A stretch of DNA of 64,000 bases from Dehalococcoidia bacterium (GTDB taxonomy: Bacteria; Chloroflexota; Dehalococcoidia; SM23-28-2): positions 124,001 to 188,000 of the forward strand of contig JAUWYP010000001.1 of assembly GCA_030615765.1 (NCBI GenBank). Direction: 5' to 3'. Positions 19,998-35,405 of this stretch are shown piece by piece (positions within the stretch are counted from its first letter, which is position 1; each line of letters starts with the position of its first letter). Position numbers and translations under genes: made by a program. Below the pieces are notes generated by a model. That model worked only from the letters and a program-made list of their open reading frames with translations, was not told the DNA's origin and ran no database searches.

Positions 19998-21509
19998 CTA
20001 CCCCTTGACCACCCCTATCGGGCGCAGGCGCACCACCCGTAGAGCGATGCCGGCGTCGTGGAGGACGTCCACCACCTCGGCTACGTCCTTGTAGGCCTCG
20101 CTGGCCTCCTCGGCCAGGGCGGCCTTGTTCTGGGTCCGCACCAGGATCCCCTTGTCGGCCAGGCGGGCGGCGATGTTCACCCCCTGCAGCTTGCGCTTGG
20201 CGGCGTGGCGGCTCATCATGCGGCCGGCGCCGTGGCAGGTCGAGCCCCAGGTCTCGGCCATCGCCCGCTCGGTGCCCACGCAGATGAAGGAGTAGCGGCC
20301 CATATCGCCGGGCACCATCACCGGCTGGCCAATGCCCTGATACTTGGATGGCACGTCGGGATGGCCGGGCGGGAAGGCGCGCGTGGCCCCCTTGCGGTGG
20401 ATGCAGAGGGTCATCTCCTTGCCATCCAGGCGGTGGCGCTCGATCTTGGCGATGTTGTGGGCCACGTCGTAGATGACGTTCATGCCCAGCTTTTCGGGGT
20501 CGCGCCGCAGCACCTTGGCGAAGGCCTCGCGCACCCAGTGGGTGATCATCTGGCGGTTGGCGAAGCCAAAGTTGCCGGCGGCGAACATGGCCCCCAGGTA
20601 GTCCTGCCCCTCCTTGGAAGCGATGGGAGCACAGGCCAGCTGCTTGTCGGGCAGGAAGACCTTGACCTTCCCCTCGACGGCCGACAGGCCCCCCTTCTCC
20701 GGGAACTGGATGCCGTGTTTGGCCGCTGCTACCTCCATCTTGTCCAGGTAGTCCTGGCAGGTCTGATGACCGAGGCCGCGGGAGCCAGTGTGGATGAACA
20801 CCATGATCTGGCCCACTTCATCGATGCCCATAACCCGGGCGGCCTGCTCATCGAAGATCTCGTCCACTACCTCGATCTCCAGGAAGTGGTTGCCCGAACC
20901 GAGGGTTCCCAACTGGGGCACACCCCGCTCCCTGGCGCGGCGGCTGATCTTGGTGGGGTCGGCGCCGGGCAGGGCACCGTCGCTCTCGATGGCGTCCAGG
21001 TCCTGAGGCCAGCCATAGCCCTTCTCCACAGCCCAGCGAGCGCCATAAGCCAGGACGTTGTCGATCTCCTTCATGGACACCTTCACCAGGCCGGAAAGCC
21101 CAAGGCCGGCAGGCACGTCGCGGAACATCTGGTTCAGCAGTGCCGGCACGTGTGGGGCCAGCTCGTCCTCACGCAGGTCGGTGCGAACTACGCGCACGCC
21201 GCAGTTGATGTCGTAGCCAACGCCGCCCGGGGACACGACGCCGTCGTCCAGGCGGGTGGCAGCTACGCCGCCGATGGGGAAGCCGTAGCCCCAGTGGATG
21301 TCGGGCATGGCCAGGGAACGGCCGACAATGCCCGGCAGGAAGGCCACGTTGGCCACCTGCTCGATGGCCTCGTCTCCGGCCATGGCGTCCAGCATCTCCT
21401 CGCTGGCAAAGATACGGCCAGGGACGCGCATGCCGTCCTTGTAGTCGCGGGAAAGGTCCCAGCGCAGCTCGTCTACTCGCTGCAGGATCTGCTTCCAGTT
21501 CTTGGCCAT
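19998..21509 (-). CDS. rtcB: RNA-splicing ligase RtcB
   Basis: A 503-residue RtcB. It has the manganese/GTP site motifs MPDIHWGYGFPIGGVAAT, GGVGYDINCGVR, LGSGNHFLEIE and HTGSRGLGHQ, and the guanylylated His in STCHGAGRMMSR. The C-terminus is RPIGVVKG. It joins RNA 2',3'-cyclic phosphate ends to 5'-OH ends using GTP, in tRNA or stress-damaged RNA repair. It lies 12 bp downstream of the archease gene on the same strand, the usual partner pair. The length is normal for the family. Confidence 0.96.
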   Translation of the reverse strand: MAKNWKQILQRVDELRWDLSRDYKDGMRVPGRIFASEEMLDAMAGDEAIEQVANVAFLPGIVGRSLAMPDIHWGYGFPIGGVAATRLDDGVVSPGGVGYDINCGVRVVRTDLREDELAPHVPALLNQMFRDVPAGLGLSGLVKVSMKEIDNVLAYGARWAVEKGYGWPQDLDAIESDGALPGADPTKISRRARERGVPQLGTLGSGNHFLEIEVVDEIFDEQAARVMGIDEVGQIMVFIHTGSRGLGHQTCQDYLDKMEVAAAKHGIQFPEKGGLSAVEGKVKVFLPDKQLACAPIASKEGQDYLGAMFAAGNFGFANRQMITHWVREAFAKVLRRDPEKLGMNVIYDVAHNIAKIERHRLDGKEMTLCIHRKGATRAFPPGHPDVPSKYQGIGQPVMVPGDMGRYSFICVGTERAMAETWGSTCHGAGRMMSRHAAKRKLQGVNIAARLADKGILVRTQNKAALAEEASEAYKDVAEVVDVLHDAGIALRVVRLRPIGVVKG

Positions 21510-21521
21510 CTCCCACCACCT

Positions 21522-21950
21522 CTAGATGTCCAGTAGTATCTGGACGCGATAGCCGTCCTCGTCCTCGTCCACCTCCAGCATGTGGCGGGTGATCGCCTTG
21601 ACGCCCGCGCCCAGCTCATGCCGCTGGCGGTCTATCTTCTCGCCGTAGGCGCTGGCCCGGAGGGAATAGGGCTCCATCTGCCTGATCTCGAATCGCTTGA
21701 AGACGAGGCCGTCGACATCGGAGAAGTAAATAAGCTCCGACAGCCAGGCCACCAGCAGGCTGGGCCAGTCGTGAGCCTCCACCGCCAGCGACCGCTCCTC
21801 CTTTTCCCGCACTCCGTTCAGGTTGACCATGACGGAAAACATACCCTCGGCCGCATGCACAAAGGCCTCGGCCAGGGTGCCACCGTGGGCTATCACACCC
21901 ACGTCGGCGGTGTGCTCCAGGAACTCGAAGGGCGCTCGCTTGGTCGCCAA
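21522..21950 (-). CDS. Archease, activator of RtcB
   Basis: A 142-residue archease: the opening FEFLEHTADVGVIAHGGTLAEAF, an acidic metal-binding cluster (HDWPSLLVAWLSELIYFSD), and the HELGAGVKAITRHML strand with a C-terminal ILLDI. Archease speeds guanylylation and turnover of RtcB. The start is TTG at 21950 with GGAGG about 12 bases upstream. It is the first gene of the archease-rtcB operon. Confidence 0.9.
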   Translation of the reverse strand: MATKRAPFEFLEHTADVGVIAHGGTLAEAFVHAAEGMFSVMVNLNGVREKEERSLAVEAHDWPSLLVAWLSELIYFSDVDGLVFKRFEIRQMEPYSLRASAYGEKIDRQRHELGAGVKAITRHMLEVDEDEDGYRVQILLDI

Positions 21951-22335: not shown

Positions 22336-23154
22336 ATGTGCGAGTATTGCGCCAAGTATGGCCACGGGAACCGCTGGTACCTGAACCCGGAGAACTACTC
22401 CGACGAGCTGCTGAAGGACAAGGCGCGTCAGCGCATGGTCGACCAGATAGCAGCCTGGGGAGTGGACTACTACATCGACCGCTCTACCCGCCAGGCGCGC
22501 TTCAGCCACGTGCCCCTCTTCGGTAGCCTATTCAAAGCAGCCGTCGACCGCGTGACGCCGGGCCGGCACGCGGGGCAGGTGGTCGCTCTGGAGGACGCGC
22601 TGGCGATAGTGGACCTCGCGCGCGACTTCGTGGCGCTGCCCTGCATGTGCCGCCGCCTGGTGGGCGGCAAGGAGGTGATGACCTGCCTCAACTTCGGCCC
22701 GATCAAGGAACTCACCATCGCCCGGAAGCCGGAAGAGCCCATGGAGGAGCTGTCGCGCGAAGAGGTCAAGGCCAGGCTGCGCGAGTTCGACAAGAGGGGC
22801 TTTATTCATCAGGTGGTCTTCGCCAAGCTCCCCTTCCCCATCGTCATCTGCAACTGCGACCGCAACTACTGCACCTCGATGAAGATGCGCTTCCAGCATG
22901 GCATCGATGTCGCCTGCCTGAAGGGGCACGGAGTCTGTGTCATCGATCACACCCGCTGCAATGGCTGCGGTGACAGGCCGCAGTGTATCCAGATGTGCCA
23001 GTTCGGTGCCCTGCGCTGGGTGCCCACGGATGGGGTGGTTGTCTGCGAGCCACAAGCCTGCTTCGGCTGTGGCCTCTGCCGTCAGGCGTGCCCACGCGGA
23101 GCCATCCGTCTCGTTCCCAGGGAGAGCCTCGCTCCCGTAGCAAACGTGTGGTAG
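22336..23154 (+). CDS. Cysteine-rich Fe-S protein, module 1 large subunit
   Basis: A 272-residue protein of unknown function. It opens MCEYCAKYGHGNRWYLNPEN, then has CMCRRLVGGKEVMTC and CNCDRNYC, and ends with two ferredoxin clusters. The second is canonical (CFGCGLCRQACP); the first has an unusual spacing, CNGCGDRPQCIQMC. A paralogue starting MCVWCERYG lies at 32104-32940 and shares the order of all motifs, which also fixes the start here at 22336. GAAGGA precedes it. It is followed after 2 bp by a small ferredoxin. An electron-transfer or redox-sensing role is inferred. The same frame is open far upstream without conserved residues. Confidence 0.8.
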   Translation: MCEYCAKYGHGNRWYLNPENYSDELLKDKARQRMVDQIAAWGVDYYIDRSTRQARFSHVPLFGSLFKAAVDRVTPGRHAGQVVALEDALAIVDLARDFVALPCMCRRLVGGKEVMTCLNFGPIKELTIARKPEEPMEELSREEVKARLREFDKRGFIHQVVFAKLPFPIVICNCDRNYCTSMKMRFQHGIDVACLKGHGVCVIDHTRCNGCGDRPQCIQMCQFGALRWVPTDGVVVCEPQACFGCGLCRQACPRGAIRLVPRESLAPVANVW

Positions 23155-23156
23155 CG

Positions 23157-23387
23157 ATGGCGTTCAGAATAGTGGTGCAGGAGTGCGATGCCTCGGCCTG
23201 CGGGTATCGGTGCCTTCAAGTCTGCCGGCTGGGCGTTCTGCTGGCCGTTCCCGTGAGCAGACACAACCGGGGCCTGCCGAGGAAGCCGGACCGCTATGTC
23301 ATCGCCCCGCGCTTCAACGGGTACTGTAACGCTTGCGGTCTCTGTGTCGAGGTCTGTCCCGACAGTGCTATCTCCCTCCAGTGCTAG
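23157..23387 (+). CDS. Small two-cluster ferredoxin, module 1
   Basis: A 76-residue ferredoxin-like protein. The first half, RIVVQECDASACGYRCLQVC, has C-x4-C-x3-C-x3-C spacing, which is atypical; the second half has canonical CNACGLCVEVCP. It starts two bases after the large Fe-S subunit, so the two are co-translated. The paralogue at 31836-32090 shares RIVV, the LxVC segment and the second cluster. Two [4Fe-4S] clusters are likely but not certain for the first site. The length is short, with no other domain. Confidence 0.8.
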   Translation: MAFRIVVQECDASACGYRCLQVCRLGVLLAVPVSRHNRGLPRKPDRYVIAPRFNGYCNACGLCVEVCPDSAISLQC

Positions 23388-23409: not shown

Positions 23410-24231
23410 ATGAAACACTTGCAGGGAAAGAACGTCTATCCAATTGAGCAGATAGGGGGCGGGTTGTTGCTTCGATATCTTCGGTGGTCAGGACTGGCGC
23501 TCCTGGCGATCGCTCTCCTGCTGGCCTTAGTGGCTGGCAGGGGCCTGGCCCAAGAGGAGCCATCCATCGTCATCACCGCACCAGCGGAGGGAGATGTCCT
23601 TTCTGGGCCGGATATCACCGTAAGCGTAGCCCTCAGCGGCTTCACCATCAGCCTGCCGCTGGAGCCCGCGCGCGAGCCCAACAAAGGGCACATCGTGTAC
23701 TTCCTGGACGTCGAGCCCTTCTTCGACCTGCCGACCCCACTGGGCGAGGACAACATCATCCATTCGGGGCGTCTCTCAGAGACGTTCGTTGGCGTAGCGG
23801 ATGGCGAGCACACGATCTACGTCTGCCTGGTCTACGACGACAACACCTGCATCGACCCGGCCCTGACCGACTCTGTGAAAGTCAGCGTGGGGGAGGTGTT
23901 ACCAACAGCGATCCCCACACCGGAGGCCACGCCGACGCCAGAGCCGCCTCAAGATACACCAACACCACCGCCGCCAACTCCATCTCCAACGGAGGAGCCA
24001 CCTCCGCTGGAGACGCCGCCAGCGAGGCCGACGCCGCCGAAGCCGAGCCCGACCGCTCCACCGCCGACAGCGATGCCTTCCCCCGGCACGGCTCCGGGCA
24101 CAGCAGGCGGTGAGTCGAACGGGGACGGCTTCCCCTGGCTGTATGTCGTCGTGGGGGCTGGCTGTGCCGGCCTAGCGGCGGTGGCTGCCGCCAGCGTGTG
24201 GCGAGTGCGGCAGACCAGGAGCAGACGCTAG
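23410..24231 (+). CDS. Membrane-anchored protein with Pro/Thr-rich stalk
   Basis: A 273-residue exported protein. A hydrophobic signal or anchor lies at residues about 26-46. An Ig-like or bacterial surface domain follows (SIVITAPAEGDVLSGPDITV to about 165). The stalk (about 168-238) is rich in Pro, Thr, Glu and Ala. A C-terminal membrane helix (about 243-265) ends in RQTRSRR. The ectodomain has two cysteines that could pair. The function is unknown; the layout suits a cell-surface anchored protein without an outer membrane. Whether it belongs with the Fe-S module upstream is unclear (22 bp gap). Confidence 0.7.
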   Translation: MKHLQGKNVYPIEQIGGGLLLRYLRWSGLALLAIALLLALVAGRGLAQEEPSIVITAPAEGDVLSGPDITVSVALSGFTISLPLEPAREPNKGHIVYFLDVEPFFDLPTPLGEDNIIHSGRLSETFVGVADGEHTIYVCLVYDDNTCIDPALTDSVKVSVGEVLPTAIPTPEATPTPEPPQDTPTPPPPTPSPTEEPPPLETPPARPTPPKPSPTAPPPTAMPSPGTAPGTAGGESNGDGFPWLYVVVGAGCAGLAAVAAASVWRVRQTRSRR

Positions 24232-29805: not shown

Positions 29806-30864
29806 TCACGGCCCTTGTTCTCTGAACCCCAGGCGGGCGGCCATATTGAGAGCGAACAGGTCGGTCATGCCGGCAACGTAGTCGGCCGCCTGACGCCAGG
29901 GCGGGTCCGACGAAATCAGGAAGTCGCTATCGATCTCCTGCGGCCGCTCTACATAATATTCGAAGAGGAACCGCACCAATCGTTTGGCGCGCTCTACCTC
30001 TGCCTGCCTGTCCTCCCACAGATAGACCCGCTGGAAGAGGAACTCCCGCAGGGCGTTGGCCGCTTCTTCGATGGATGGCCCCATGCCGATGCGAGGCGGA
30101 GATTCGCTGGCTGCCAGGCCCGTCGCCGCCCAAGAGTAGTCGACGATGTCGCACACGAGGGCGTTGATGCGCTGAGAGTGGCCGCGCCCCAGGGCTTCGC
30201 TTACGGCGACGGGCAGCTCGTCCTCGCTGAGAATGCCGGCACGCACGGCATCGGCGATGTCGTGATTGATGTAGGCTACGGCGTCGGCCAGCCGCACGAC
30301 CTGCCCCTCCAGAGTGGCCGGCAGACCCAGGGTGTCGGCCAGGATGTCCTGCCGCCCTTTGGAGCTGTTCACGATGCCATCGCGTACCTCCCAGGTGAGG
30401 TTGAGGCCGCGGCCGCCGTTCTCCAGGCGCTGCACCACCCGCAGGCTCTGCTCGGCGTGGCGGAAGCCCTCGGGCAGGAGTTCGGCCAGGGCCTCCTCGC
30501 CGGCGTGGCCGAAGGGCGGGTGGCCCAGGTCGTGACCCAGGGCGATGGCCTCCGTCAGGTCCTCGTTCAGGTTGAGGGCGCGGGCGATGGTGCGGGCGAT
30601 CTGGGCTACCTCCAGGGTGTGGGTCAGACGGGTGACGAAGTGGTCGCCCACGGGGGCGATGAATACCTGCGTCTTGTGCTTGAGGCGGCGGAAGGCCTTG
30701 CAGTGGATGATGCGGTCACGGTCGCGCTGGAACTGCGTGCGCAGGGGCGACGGCTCCTCTGGCCGCTCCCGTCCACGCGATTCGTAGCTCCTGGCAGCGA
30801 AGGGCGAAAGGAGGCGCTCCCGCTCCTCCAGGCGAGCGCCGACGTCGTGTTGATGACCCATCAC
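29806..30864 (-). CDS. dgt: dGTPase-like HD-domain deoxynucleoside triphosphohydrolase
   Basis: A 352-residue protein of the Dgt family. The HD motif runs from THTLEVAQIARTIARAL to GHDLGHPPFGHAGE, with the third metal ligands in YINHDIADAV. The opening RTQFQRDRDRIIHCKAFRRL and KTQVF match the deoxyguanosinetriphosphate triphosphohydrolase-like group. It cleaves dNTPs to nucleoside and triphosphate. The start at 30864 is followed by MGHQHDV; the family core begins near residue 35. It is on the same strand upstream of dnaG, but 155 bp away. Confidence 0.92.
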   Translation of the reverse strand: MMGHQHDVGARLEERERLLSPFAARSYESRGRERPEEPSPLRTQFQRDRDRIIHCKAFRRLKHKTQVFIAPVGDHFVTRLTHTLEVAQIARTIARALNLNEDLTEAIALGHDLGHPPFGHAGEEALAELLPEGFRHAEQSLRVVQRLENGGRGLNLTWEVRDGIVNSSKGRQDILADTLGLPATLEGQVVRLADAVAYINHDIADAVRAGILSEDELPVAVSEALGRGHSQRINALVCDIVDYSWAATGLAASESPPRIGMGPSIEEAANALREFLFQRVYLWEDRQAEVERAKRLVRFLFEYYVERPQEIDSDFLISSDPPWRQAADYVAGMTDLFALNMAARLGFREQGP

Positions 30865-30926: not shown

Positions 30927-31172
30927 TCAGCGCGGCACGTAGCGGGGGCAGCCGTCGTCGGTCTCTTGGTACAAGGGCACGTCGGGGGAGAAGAAGAGCG
31001 CATACTTGCCCTGGCGCGCCGCCTCCTCCAGGGCGTGCAGTTGCTCAGCGCTCGGCGAGCCGTTGAGCAGTTGCTCCCGGCAGTAGCCCCAATCGGCAAG
31101 GACGCTATCGTTGGAGAAGCAATAGACGAACTTCGCACAGTGGCTGCACTTTGGCTGAAACGGCTCGTGCAT
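30927..31172 (-). CDS. Small cysteine-containing protein of unknown function
   Basis: An 81-residue protein. CSHCAKFVYC near the N-terminus, a Cys in GYCREQL and a C-terminal GCPRYVPR give five cysteines, enough for a small metal site. I do not recognise the family. It starts 77 bp downstream of the 196-residue unknown gene on the same strand, separated from it by a strong terminator-like hairpin, and ends 62 bp before dgt begins. The link to the Fe-S module upstream is suggested only by position and by its cysteines. AGGTTAG precedes the ATG. Confidence 0.6.
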   Translation of the reverse strand: MHEPFQPKCSHCAKFVYCFSNDSVLADWGYCREQLLNGSPSAEQLHALEEAARQGKYALFFSPDVPLYQETDDGCPRYVPR

Positions 31173-31248: not shown

Positions 31249-31839
31249 CTAAGTACAGAAGAAGGCGAACTCGCACACGTTGTCCTGAGGAAGGGTTTTT
31301 TCGAGCTCCATACGCAGGTCATCGCCCGTCTTCCCGGCGGCGGCTCCAAAGCTGGCCATGCACAGAGCTTTGCAGGGCATCCCCTGGAACTCGATGCCTG
31401 CCTCCTTCAACTCCTTCTGAACGGCGCAGGCGAACAGCTGCAGCCGTAGCTCCTTGGTCGTGGCCTTGGCGATATTCCAGCGGTCGAGGGGGCGGTAGCC
31501 GATGAGTGAGAGCTCGACGTAGCGCTCAAAGCGATGGGGGAAGGAGATGCCCGTCTGCTGGGCCACCTTCTCGATCATTTCGCCCGTGCGGTCCAGGTAC
31601 CTGTCATCCGCCAGGCCGATGGTCATCTCCATGACCTTGCGTCCGAAGGCGGCGAAGGCGTCCTCGGCCTCCTTCTCGTTCTTGCCCTTCAGGCCCTGCA
31701 CAAAGGCCTTAACGTTGCAGACCGCCGAGACATCCACGATGAGACCCCTGTCGGCATCGAACAGAAGCGGCTTGCCGGGCTCCTCCAGGGTGAGGAGCCT
31801 CTCTGGAATAGGTTTGCCGTAGCGATACTTGATAGTCAT
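31249..31839 (-). CDS. Unknown protein in Fe-S module 2
   Basis: A 196-residue protein that I cannot assign. It is soluble, with a cysteine cluster in GMPCKALCMASFG and single cysteines near residue 41 and at the C-terminus (CEFAFFCT). The ATG at 31839 overlaps the ferredoxin stop (ATGA), so it is translationally coupled to the Fe-S genes and likely works with them. The frame extends upstream to 31899, but that part lies within the ferredoxin gene and is not needed. There is no counterpart gene next to the paralogous module at 22336. Confidence 0.7.
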   Translation of the reverse strand: MTIKYRYGKPIPERLLTLEEPGKPLLFDADRGLIVDVSAVCNVKAFVQGLKGKNEKEAEDAFAAFGRKVMEMTIGLADDRYLDRTGEMIEKVAQQTGISFPHRFERYVELSLIGYRPLDRWNIAKATTKELRLQLFACAVQKELKEAGIEFQGMPCKALCMASFGAAAGKTGDDLRMELEKTLPQDNVCEFAFFCT

Positions 31840-32090
31840 GCTGGCGCACCCCCGTCCACAGCTACCTGGATGGCTCCATTGGGACAGATCTCCGCACACT
31901 TCATGCAGGCGGTGCAGAACTGTTCACGCACGCCCCTGACGATGAAGTGCTGAGGGTCGATCTCCCGATACTTCTGAGGGCCCACATCGGTGCCCAGACC
32001 CAGCACGCGGGTGGGGCAGACGAGCAAGCACTTGCGGCAGGCCAGAGGGTCGGGACACTTGGCGTCGTCAACAACGATCCTGGGAAGCAT
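31836..32090 (-). CDS. Small two-cluster ferredoxin, module 2
   Basis: An 84-residue ferredoxin. The first cluster motif CPDPLACRKCLLVCP has C-x5-C-x2-C-x3-C spacing; the second is canonical CTACMKCAEICPNGAI. It is a paralogue of the protein at 23157-23387 (shared RIVV start, LxVC segment and second cluster). It lies 13 bp after the large Fe-S subunit and overlaps the following gene by 4 bp. It probably carries electrons to or from the large subunit. Confidence 0.82.
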   Translation of the reverse strand: MLPRIVVDDAKCPDPLACRKCLLVCPTRVLGLGTDVGPQKYREIDPQHFIVRGVREQFCTACMKCAEICPNGAIQVAVDGGAPA

Positions 32091-32103
32091 ATCGCGATTC
32101 CTC

Positions 32104-32940
32104 CTACCAGACCTCGACCAGCGCAGGCAGGGTTGCCCGGTCGACCAAGCCTATGGCATCGGGCTTGCAGACGTCCCGGCAGAGGCCACAGCCGTAGCAC
32201 TGCATGGGGTCGATGTTGGCCTTGAGGGTGCTGGGGCTGAAGCTCAGGGCTTTGAACTGGCAGCGGCGCACACAGAGGCCGCAGCCGTCACAGAGGTTGG
32301 GGTCGACCTCGGCTATGTAGTGGCCCTTCCAGAGGACCTTGACATCCATGTCCACAGCGGTGCGGATGGCGGCGCAGTCAGGGTAGTCGCAGTTGCAGAG
32401 GCCGGCCAGGTAGGGGGTGCCGAAGGTGAACAAGGTGTGCACCAGACCGCGGCTCCTGAGGGTAGCGAAAACCTGCTTGGCCTCGTCCGGAGTCAAGAAG
32501 TGGACGCCGCCCCGATAGGTGTCGGGCCAGCGCTCCCACTTGTACATGCCGGGGCCCATGCCCACACAGGTGAAGTTCTCCTCGTCGGGCAGGCCCCGCA
32601 TAGAGCGGCGGCAGGCGCAGGTCATCAGGCCGATGGGGTAGATCATGTCCAGAACCTGCTCCAGTTCCTCCTTGGTGATCACCTGGCCAAAGTGGACGGA
32701 CCAGGAGATGTCGTGGGCCTGTTTCTTCATCCTCTCCACTGTTTCCAGGTCACCTCGTTCACGGGCCTCCAGGAACGCGCGTCCCATCGAGGCCATGCCG
32801 CCGGCCGCCTGAGGGTTGCCCTCGGCACCGGCGGACTCCGGCTCCTCCTTGCGAATCTTGTACAGGCGACGAGCATAGTTGGCGGGGTTGAGGTACCAGC
32901 GCTCGTGGCCTTCGCCGTAGCGTTCACACCAGACGCACAT
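32104..32940 (-). CDS. Cysteine-rich Fe-S protein, module 2 large subunit
   Basis: A 278-residue paralogue of the protein at 22336-23154. It opens MCVWCERYGEGHERWYLNPA, followed by CACRRSMRGLPDEENFTC and CNCDYPDC. Two canonical ferredoxin clusters end the protein: CDGCGLCVRRC and CYGCGLCRDVCKPDAI. The N-terminal cysteines outside the ferredoxin motifs are the same in both paralogues, which suggests an additional metal site. The function is unknown. It heads an operon with a small ferredoxin and a 196-residue unknown protein. GGGGG precedes the ATG. Confidence 0.8.
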   Translation of the reverse strand: MCVWCERYGEGHERWYLNPANYARRLYKIRKEEPESAGAEGNPQAAGGMASMGRAFLEARERGDLETVERMKKQAHDISWSVHFGQVITKEELEQVLDMIYPIGLMTCACRRSMRGLPDEENFTCVGMGPGMYKWERWPDTYRGGVHFLTPDEAKQVFATLRSRGLVHTLFTFGTPYLAGLCNCDYPDCAAIRTAVDMDVKVLWKGHYIAEVDPNLCDGCGLCVRRCQFKALSFSPSTLKANIDPMQCYGCGLCRDVCKPDAIGLVDRATLPALVEVW

Positions 32941-33119: not shown

Positions 33120-35405
33120 CTATGCCTTGGCGACCTCGGCCAGCTTCGCCTCCGCGTCGGCGATGATCTGACGGGTCTTGTCGATGACGTCGGGGGTGAC
33201 GGAGATGGAGGTGATGCCCCACTCCACCAGCTTCTCGGTCAGATCCGGATAGTCGGACGGGGCCTGGCCGCAGATGGACGAGGTGACGCCCCGCGCCTTG
33301 GCCGTCTTGATGAGATGCTCCAGGGCCACCAGCACCGCGTCGTTGCGCTCGTCGAACTCGGCGGCGAAGCGGGCGTTATCGCGGTCGATCCCGAGGACGA
33401 GCTGGGTGAGGTCGTTGGAGCCGATGGAGATGCCGTCGATGCCGACATCGAGGAACTGGTCCAGGATGAGGGCGTTGGAGGGCACCTCAGCCATCATCCA
33501 CAGCTTGAAGTCCTGGGAGGGCGCCAGCCCTTCGCGTACCATGACCTCCCTCACGCCGGCCAGCTCCTCAGGGGTGCGCACGAAGGGGATCATCACCCAC
33601 AGGTTGGGATAGTCTTTTCGTACTCGCTTGATGGCCTCGAGCTCGAGGCGGAAGATGTCGATGTCGCGGATGTAGCGAGAGGCGCCCCGATAGCCGATCA
33701 TGGGGTTCTCTTCGAATTCCTCGTATTTGTCGCCGCCGCGCAGGTTGCGGTACTCGTTGGTCTTGAAGTCGTTGGTGCGGTAGACCACCGGGCGGGGATG
33801 GAAGGCACTGGCAAACTTGCGCAGGCTGTCGGTCAGCTTGTCGATGTACTCCTCGCTCCGCCCCTCGTCGATGGCGAGTTGAGGGTGCTCACCGATCTGG
33901 GCGATCATGAACTCGGCCCGCAGGAGTCCCACGCCGTCGACGTTGCGGGCGGCGACGACATCGGCCAGGTCCGGGTCCGCCAGGTTGACGTAGACTTTGG
34001 TGCGCGTCTTGATGTCTGCCACTACCGCCTGGCGGGCTTTTTCCTGGGCAGCCCAGGCCAGCCGAGTCTCGGCGCGGCCGTCGTAGACCTTGCCCTGGCC
34101 ACCGTCGACGGTCACCAGCTGGTCTGTGTGCAATGTCGTGGTCGCTTCCCCCGCTCCCACCACGCAGGGAATGCCCAACTCACGGCTGACAATAGCAGCG
34201 TGGCAGGTACGGCCACCGCGGTCGGTGACGATGGCCGCCGCCCGCTTCATGGCCGGCACGAAGTCGGGGGTGGTCATCTCTGACACCAGGATGTCGCCCT
34301 CCTTTACGCGGTCGATCTCAGAGGAGCTGAGGATAATCTTCACCGGCCCCACCGCCGCCCCCGGGCTGGCCGGGGAGCCACTGAGAAGCAGCGGCGCCGT
34401 CTCCTCCGCCTCCTCCGTCTCCGCCTTGGCGACGGCCAGGGCGGTCACCGGGCGCGTCTGGAGGATGTCCAGCTCGCCCCCTTCCTCCGCCCACTCGATG
34501 TCCTGGGGGAAGTCGTAGTGCTCCTCCACCCGCTTGCCGATGGTGGCCAGAGCGACGATCTGCTCATCGCTCAGCTTCTGCTGCTTGCGTAGCTCGTCCG
34601 GGACAGCAAGCCAAACGTTGATCTCGCCCTCGCCATCTGCCTTGGGATTCCTGACCAGTTGCCGCTCCTGGTTGACCACCCGCTTCTCCAGGATGCGCAG
34701 GCTGGCCTTGTCCAGCACGTAGAGGTCGGGCGTGATCTCGCCCGAGACGATGGCCTCCCCCAGGCCGAAGACGGCCTCAATAGCGATCTTGGAGCGATCG
34801 CCGCTGACCGGCTCGAGGGTGAACATGACCCCGGAGCGGGAGGATTGCACCATGCGCTGCACAGGAACAGCGATGGCCACCTTCATGTGCTCGAACCCCT
34901 TGTCGGCGCGGTAGAAGATAGCCCGTGCCTCGAAGAGGGAGGCCCAGCAGGCGCGCACGGCGTCCACCACCTCATCCTCACCCACCACGTTCAGGAAAGT
35001 GGCCTGCTGGCCGGCGAAAGAGGCGTCGGCGAGGTCCTCGGCGGTGGCCGAGCTGCGTACAGCTACCGGGCCGCCGCCCAGCTCGCGATAGGCCTTCTTG
35101 ATCGCAGCGGCGATCTGCTGAGGCACAGGGGCACCGCGTATGAGGGATTTTATCTCCTCAGAGACCTTCTGAAGCCGAGCGCTGTCGTTATAGTCCAGAG
35201 GAGAAAGGAGCTTCTGGATGATGGGGCGAAGACCGGCTTGCTCAAGGAACCGGGTATAGGTGTGGGCAGTGACAATGAATCCCGGGGGTACCGGGATCTG
35301 AGCTTGGGTCATCTCCCCGAGGTTGGCTCCCTTTCCACCCACCAGGGGGATGTCTTTCTTGCCGACCTCCTTGAACCATAGCACCTCTCGCTCGCTAGCC
35401 CTCAT
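33120..35405 (-). CDS. ppsA: Phosphoenolpyruvate synthase (pyruvate, water dikinase)
   Basis: A 761-residue PEP synthase. The ATP-binding domain is N-terminal (LVGGKGANLGEM, then VAVRSSATAEDLADASFAGQ). The central phosphohistidine swivel has GGRTCHAAIVSRELGIPCVV, where His is phosphorylated. The C-terminal TIM barrel has NDLTQLVLGIDRDN and the catalytic Cys of SSICGQAPSD. It makes PEP from pyruvate and ATP for gluconeogenesis or anaplerosis. It is transcribed alone from a good promoter (35464-35492). The length is normal. Confidence 0.95.
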   Translation of the reverse strand: MRASEREVLWFKEVGKKDIPLVGGKGANLGEMTQAQIPVPPGFIVTAHTYTRFLEQAGLRPIIQKLLSPLDYNDSARLQKVSEEIKSLIRGAPVPQQIAAAIKKAYRELGGGPVAVRSSATAEDLADASFAGQQATFLNVVGEDEVVDAVRACWASLFEARAIFYRADKGFEHMKVAIAVPVQRMVQSSRSGVMFTLEPVSGDRSKIAIEAVFGLGEAIVSGEITPDLYVLDKASLRILEKRVVNQERQLVRNPKADGEGEINVWLAVPDELRKQQKLSDEQIVALATIGKRVEEHYDFPQDIEWAEEGGELDILQTRPVTALAVAKAETEEAEETAPLLLSGSPASPGAAVGPVKIILSSSEIDRVKEGDILVSEMTTPDFVPAMKRAAAIVTDRGGRTCHAAIVSRELGIPCVVGAGEATTTLHTDQLVTVDGGQGKVYDGRAETRLAWAAQEKARQAVVADIKTRTKVYVNLADPDLADVVAARNVDGVGLLRAEFMIAQIGEHPQLAIDEGRSEEYIDKLTDSLRKFASAFHPRPVVYRTNDFKTNEYRNLRGGDKYEEFEENPMIGYRGASRYIRDIDIFRLELEAIKRVRKDYPNLWVMIPFVRTPEELAGVREVMVREGLAPSQDFKLWMMAEVPSNALILDQFLDVGIDGISIGSNDLTQLVLGIDRDNARFAAEFDERNDAVLVALEHLIKTAKARGVTSSICGQAPSDYPDLTEKLVEWGITSISVTPDVIDKTRQIIADAEAKLAEVAKA

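Follow-up and report, generated by a model that had tools for sequence, protein, structure and literature searches.

The window analyzed here, a 64,000-nucleotide stretch of DNA from a Dehalococcoidia bacterium, encodes two pairs of proteins, each composed of a large protein rich in conserved cysteines and a small ferredoxin; a third pair is encoded elsewhere in the genome. The observations cover the pairing of the genes, the conserved cysteines, purifying selection on the proteins, co-divergence of the partners and the neighboring genes in other lineages; an electron-transfer module is the most likely reading. The fuller proposal, that each pair would form a soluble iron-sulfur (Fe-S) electron-transfer module able to serve different oxidoreductases, appears to us evenly balanced. 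More tentatively, the N-terminal domain of the large protein (N-domain) may represent a previously undescribed Fe-S fold, recurring in several architectures among anaerobes of both bacterial and archaeal (also Asgard) lineages and acting either as an adaptor between a private ferredoxin and interchangeable oxidoreductases or as a new Fe-S catalyst.

The open reading frames of the first pair (copy 1) were confirmed as initially annotated, and comprise the following features.

22336..23154, plus strand: copy 1 large subunit (272 aa), with a putative N-terminal CxCR/CNC Fe-S domain and two ferredoxin-type cluster motifs
22336..22923, plus strand: N-terminal domain of the large subunit (residues 1-196), unrecognised, with Cys 2, 5, 103, 105, 117, 172, 174 and 179
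22945..23121, plus strand: C-terminal 2[4Fe-4S] ferredoxin domain of the large subunit (residues 204-262), matching Fer4 and Fer4_7, with a widened first loop
23157..23387, plus strand: copy 1 partner ferredoxin (76 aa), with a Fer4 match, 2 bp downstream of the large subunit

An AAGGA ribosome-binding-like site lies upstream of the large-subunit start, and the MC start is common to nearly all relatives of the protein; proteins of the full type have their first Cys immediately after the initiator residue. The MCxxC...WYLNP, CxCRR, CNCDxxxC and ferredoxin motifs described in the initial annotation are all present and are aligned between the copies. Both copy 1 proteins carry two four-Cys motifs and exceed the curated cut-offs for a 2[4Fe-4S] ferredoxin domain: the large subunit matches Fer4 at 27.0 bits (cut-off 21.1) and Fer4_7 at 27.2 (cut-off 27), and the small ferredoxin matches Fer4 at 27.4 bits and Fer4_9 at 27.0 (cut-off 27). 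In VIA, the C-terminal domain of the large subunit resembled the beta subunits of APS reductase (Z 10.8) and clostridial ferredoxin (Z 9.2). The dN/dS values against same-genus orthologues were 0.16 for the large subunit and 0.28 for the ferredoxin, and all five genes of the copy 1 and copy 2 units are under purifying selection.

The first ferredoxin cluster of the large subunit indeed has the spacing C-x2-C-x5-C-x3-C, which had been regarded as an oddity of this copy. It is instead a clade trait, since a widened first loop (x4 to x7) is present in every copy-1-clade relative, and degeneration of the cluster was rejected on the same grounds. About 24 bp past the copy 1 ferredoxin lies a gene for an exported protein that is rich in proline and threonine and anchored to the membrane by its C terminus (23411-24231, plus strand), whose product bears no relation to the third gene of copy 2 (see below). 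Adjoining RtcB RNA ligase and archease genes (19998-21950, minus strand) are divergent from copy 1.

A genome-wide search at the protein level with copy 1 recovered the paralogous pair already noted at 31836-32940 (copy 2; minus strand, same gene order, E 3.8e-33) and a further copy on contig C47 (E 7.6e-45), also followed by a ferredoxin; with such values the likeness among the copies is not due to chance. Contig C47 is unlikely to be a contaminant, as its base composition (GC 64.8%, tetranucleotide correlation 0.982) matches that of the window. A plasmid search gave no match. In the tree, the three copies fall into three separate old clades, each copy being nearer to proteins of other phyla: copy 1 groups with proteins from Actinomycetota, Asgard archaea and Altiarchaeota, copy 2 with Dehalococcoidia proteins and two from Asgard lineages, and copy 3 belongs to a large clade whose members mostly lack the ferredoxin. 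A recent tandem duplication was therefore rejected. The pair does recur, as the initial annotation of a duplicated two-gene module had it, but "duplicated" is a misleading label for three pairs that represent three old subfamilies, one of them a three-gene unit.

A ferredoxin is encoded directly downstream in 11 of 11 copy-1-clade members and in nearly all of the copy-2 clade, and many other relatives are solo. L052, which the motif filter passed over, also has a ferredoxin. Where both partners occur, N-domain and ferredoxin distances correlate (Mantel r 0.66, or 0.48 on 19 thinned pairs; 0 of 5000 permutations), as expected of a long-lived pair.

The copy 2 unit is composed of three genes.

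32104..32940, minus strand: copy 2 large subunit (278 aa; dN/dS 0.12 against the same-genus orthologue)
31836..32090, minus strand: copy 2 partner ferredoxin (84 aa; dN/dS 0.22), after a 13-bp gap from the large subunit
31249..31839, minus strand: copy 2 third gene (196 aa; dN/dS 0.14), divergent DUF6125/ATC-hydrolase-like

The ATG of the third gene overlaps the stop codon of the ferredoxin by 4 bp (ATGA); the third gene is translationally coupled, which makes the copy 2 module one of three genes rather than two. Homologues of the third gene occupy the equivalent position in 10 other loci, two of them in Asgard archaea, and occur in no solo locus (p 8e-5, Fisher, relatedness uncorrected). Four Cys are invariant in this family. 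The Pfam matches came from relatives, to DUF6125 (E 1.2e-5, in 1 of 10) and to ATC_hydrolase (E 0.01), and the window protein itself gave no match to either DUF6125 (PF19620) or ATC_hydrolase. A search of the open-access literature yielded nothing on DUF6125.

Several further features surround copy 2. A PEP synthase gene (33120-35405, minus strand) is located ~180 bp upstream, and the adjacency recurs in one same-class relative (L135), where the order is kept, representing synteny across families of the class. PEP synthase was rejected as a partner of copy 2, since a PEP-synthase-like gene is near only 2 of the 80 fetched relatives (L074 and L095) and is encoded there on the opposite strand. 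A Cys-rich 81-aa ORF (30927-31172, minus strand) lies between a dGTPase gene and the copy 2 unit, and a similar ORF adjoins the dGTPase gene in L135 (11551-11877). The tRNA-His called by ARAGORN at 30499-30586 (plus strand), inside the dGTPase-like gene (29806-30864, minus strand), is probably a false positive.

No clear match of the N-terminal part to a characterised Fe-S family, which would have refuted the initial view of the module as undescribed, emerged from the searches. Pfam and NCBIfam detect only the ferredoxin motifs in the window proteins, and residues 1-196, searched in 68 relatives one by one, gave no credible match but only scattered weak ones, each in 1-4 of the 68. Single-sequence and profile searches of the PDB sequences likewise gave no credible match for these residues; pentatricopeptide repeat matches from the profile search were discarded as a repeat artefact, since no single stretch passes. 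The AlphaFold2 models were of high confidence, both for the whole copy 1 large protein (pLDDT 93.8, pTM 0.91) and for the N-domain alone (pLDDT 93.3, pTM 0.89). Against PDB folds, the N-domain model gave no significant match in Foldseek (best E 0.66), which does not prove a new fold, and the best VIA score was Z 2.7, to a GNAT acetyltransferase (96 residues, rmsd 4.6). No description of the family was found in the open-access literature searched, in keeping with the earlier view of the module as undescribed.

In the 88 full-type relatives compared, 16 Cys reach 98-100% conservation, with eight in the N-domain (the positions listed above) and eight in the ferredoxin motifs, a number sufficient for four [4Fe-4S] clusters. 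The sequence CNCC was found in none of 84 full-type relatives versus 5 of 6 relatives that lack the MCxxC start, and those five have extra Cys, as if C2 and C5 complete a second N-domain cluster. From this pattern we infer that the N-domain would hold two clusters, with either C2/C5 or the extra Cys completing the second.

A scan of public genome contigs yielded 174 relatives, of which 80 were kept. They span about 20 phyla, mostly anaerobic, and include Chloroflexota, Actinomycetota, Bacillota, Thermodesulfobacteriota, Planctomycetota, Armatimonadota, Archaeoglobus, Altiarchaeota and several Asgard lineages, among others. Because relatives were retrieved by two peptide patterns built around MCxxC and WYLNP, the conservation of these two stretches is partly selected for; five relatives found without the patterns (L011, L012, L022, L024 and L029) also have MCxxC and a tryptophan-tyrosine motif. 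Within the class, the full protein was present in 49 of 294 genomes (best E about 1e-39 or lower), and it was rarer in those with COX1, which was detected in 11 of the 49 versus 159 of the other 245 (p 6e-8, relatedness uncorrected). The genome of the window gave no COX1 match; it gave two AOR matches, one placed on contig C56. Across the class genomes AOR and the full protein were not associated (p 0.25; 1.0 among COX1-negative genomes), and AOR as a universal partner was thus not supported at the genome level. In a single-contig Dehalococcoidia genome of 1.5 Mb, the gene of a short CxCR...CNCCxCCC relative (L127:6371-6952) is oriented divergently from genes for formyl-THF synthetase, FolD and RACo-like and CooC-like proteins.

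The survey of neighboring genes that the initial annotation had suggested revealed no constant enzyme partner, and even the ferredoxin is lacking in many relatives. No AOR, GltD-like or GlcD/HdrD gene adjoins copies 1 and 2, and neither copy 1 nor its Asgard and Altiarchaeota orthologues have an adjoining enzyme gene that points to a partner; on the latter account no enzyme partner can be called constant. In other lineages, AOR was found within 6 kb in 9 of 32 paired loci versus 1 of 43 solo loci (p 0.0015, Fisher, relatedness uncorrected); all ten of these have AOR and the module on the same strand, and four are close Actinomycetota kin. The paired form also occurs near genes for Fe-dependent alcohol dehydrogenase, SCP2 proteins, HdrD-like proteins and CooC-like ATPases. 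In L079 and L089, a GltD-like Fer4_20/Pyr_redox_2 flavoprotein is encoded 30-36 bp upstream; in L052, GlcD and HdrD-like proteins are encoded just upstream. A conserved protein of ~220 aa, of unassigned family, accompanies the pair in L049 (1391-2059), L050, L052 and L056, which are loci of Chloroflexota, Lokiarchaeota and Moorella and in most cases have AOR close by; the L049 copy gave no match in Pfam.

Electron transfer and redox sensing had both been offered initially as possible roles, and the AOR, GltD-like and GlcD/HdrD neighbors favor the former, although they are not constant and many relatives lack the ferredoxin. In the proposed mechanism, the large protein would carry four [4Fe-4S] clusters (a number and type deduced from the Cys motifs), two in the N-domain and two in the C-terminal ferredoxin domain, and would form a complex with its dedicated 2[4Fe-4S] ferredoxin, exchanging electrons with it in either direction. 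The partner oxidoreductase would dock on the N-domain, and the module would thereby link the low-potential ferredoxin pool to that partner, which in some lineages, depending on the subfamily, may be a tungsten AOR, a GltD-like NAD(P)H flavoprotein or GlcD/HdrD. In favor of such a module stand the 16 conserved Cys, the CNCC contrast, the co-diverging downstream ferredoxin, the oxidoreductase neighbors and the rarity of the full type where COX1 is present. The lack of a constant enzyme partner, the many solo relatives, the failure of AOR to track the protein at the genome level and the highly conserved non-Cys residues named below count against it.

Other roles were weighed on the same material. 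The residues W14, Y15, N20, Y21, Q81, R106 and G155, around the motifs, are near-invariant, and H78 and H158, beside the Cys motifs, are mostly conserved; the former seven could participate in catalysis or ligand sensing. They lend some weight to a catalytic enzyme, in which an N-domain Fe-S center would bind substrate and the ferredoxin parts would supply electrons, as does the occurrence of the pair alone, with no other enzyme genes. Such an enzyme is nevertheless unlikely: no catalytic fold or cofactor site is recognised, and two ordinary clusters would consume all eight N-domain Cys. A redox or Fe-S-status sensor, in which a labile cluster in the CxCR/CNC domain would signal the oxygen or redox state and the ferredoxin would serve as reader or reductant, is rather unlikely as well. 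It would accommodate the lack of a constant enzyme partner, the many isolated solo genes beside unrelated genes, the ~220-aa companion and one relative architecture with an N-terminal extension of ~200 residues that is winged-helix-like in appearance (the LexA_DNA_bind match of L023, E 0.056, is sub-threshold). However, Pfam detects no DNA-binding domain in the window proteins, 16 conserved Cys and a dedicated ferredoxin would be unusual for a sensor, and the neighbors in several lineages are oxidoreductases rather than regulons.

Quite improbable is a factor for maturation of cofactors or metal centers (of Fe-S, Mo/W or Ni enzymes) that is not itself an electron carrier. CooC-like ATPases occur in 4 of 32 paired and 0 of 43 solo loci, NifU-like and cysteine-desulfurase-like genes adjoin L054, and MoaD-like genes adjoin AOR in L056 and L091, all of which would fit this role; such neighbors are, however, confined to few lineages and absent near copies 1 and 2, and MoaD-like genes are expected by AOR in any case.

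Apart from its ferredoxin motifs, this family, with its 16 conserved Cys and frequent dedicated ferredoxin, escapes Pfam, NCBIfam and the PDB although it spans about 20 phyla, most of them anaerobic. Should the N-domain be a new Fe-S fold that couples to AOR, NAD(P)H-flavoprotein and GlcD/HdrD systems, it would supply a missing piece of electron wiring to the energy metabolism of Asgard archaea, Dehalococcoidia and uncultured anaerobes. The module is open to direct expression and testing.

Among related and known systems, the short CxCR...CNCCxCCC proteins of a Dehalococcoidia genome (180-225 aa; L017/L127) share the N-domain core by profile, and differ in lacking the MCxxC start and the ferredoxin domain and in having three extra Cys; they are likewise uncharacterised and have no family model. 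The likeness of the copy 2 third gene to DUF6125 and ATC_hydrolase (PF19620 and PF14196) consists of the weak match from its relatives and the four invariant Cys, and DUF6125 is itself a family without known function. HdrD/GlcF-type CCG proteins (PF02754) are likewise Cys-rich electron carriers of anaerobes and sometimes adjoin the module (L040-L043 and L052), but their Cys pattern differs, and no CCG domain was detected in the window proteins or in any of the N-domain relatives scanned. Clostridial-type 2[4Fe-4S] ferredoxins (Fer4/Fer4_7) resemble the small protein and the C-terminal part of the large one, and have no counterpart of the N-terminal 196 residues. In Aromatoleum aromaticum, the four ferredoxin clusters of the AorA polyferredoxin, bound through four CxxCxxCxxxC motifs within a double-ferredoxin fold, connect tungsten AOR with a flavin subunit (PMC10413684). 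The module would resemble AorA as a small Fe-S protein with ferredoxin-type clusters that wires an AOR-family enzyme to another redox partner; an AOR catalytic gene adjoins it in some other lineages, and not at copies 1 and 2. In contrast to the four motifs in the single chain of AorA, the large protein carries only two of the CxxCxxCxxxC type, to which the module adds the CxCR/CNC domain and a separate ferredoxin.
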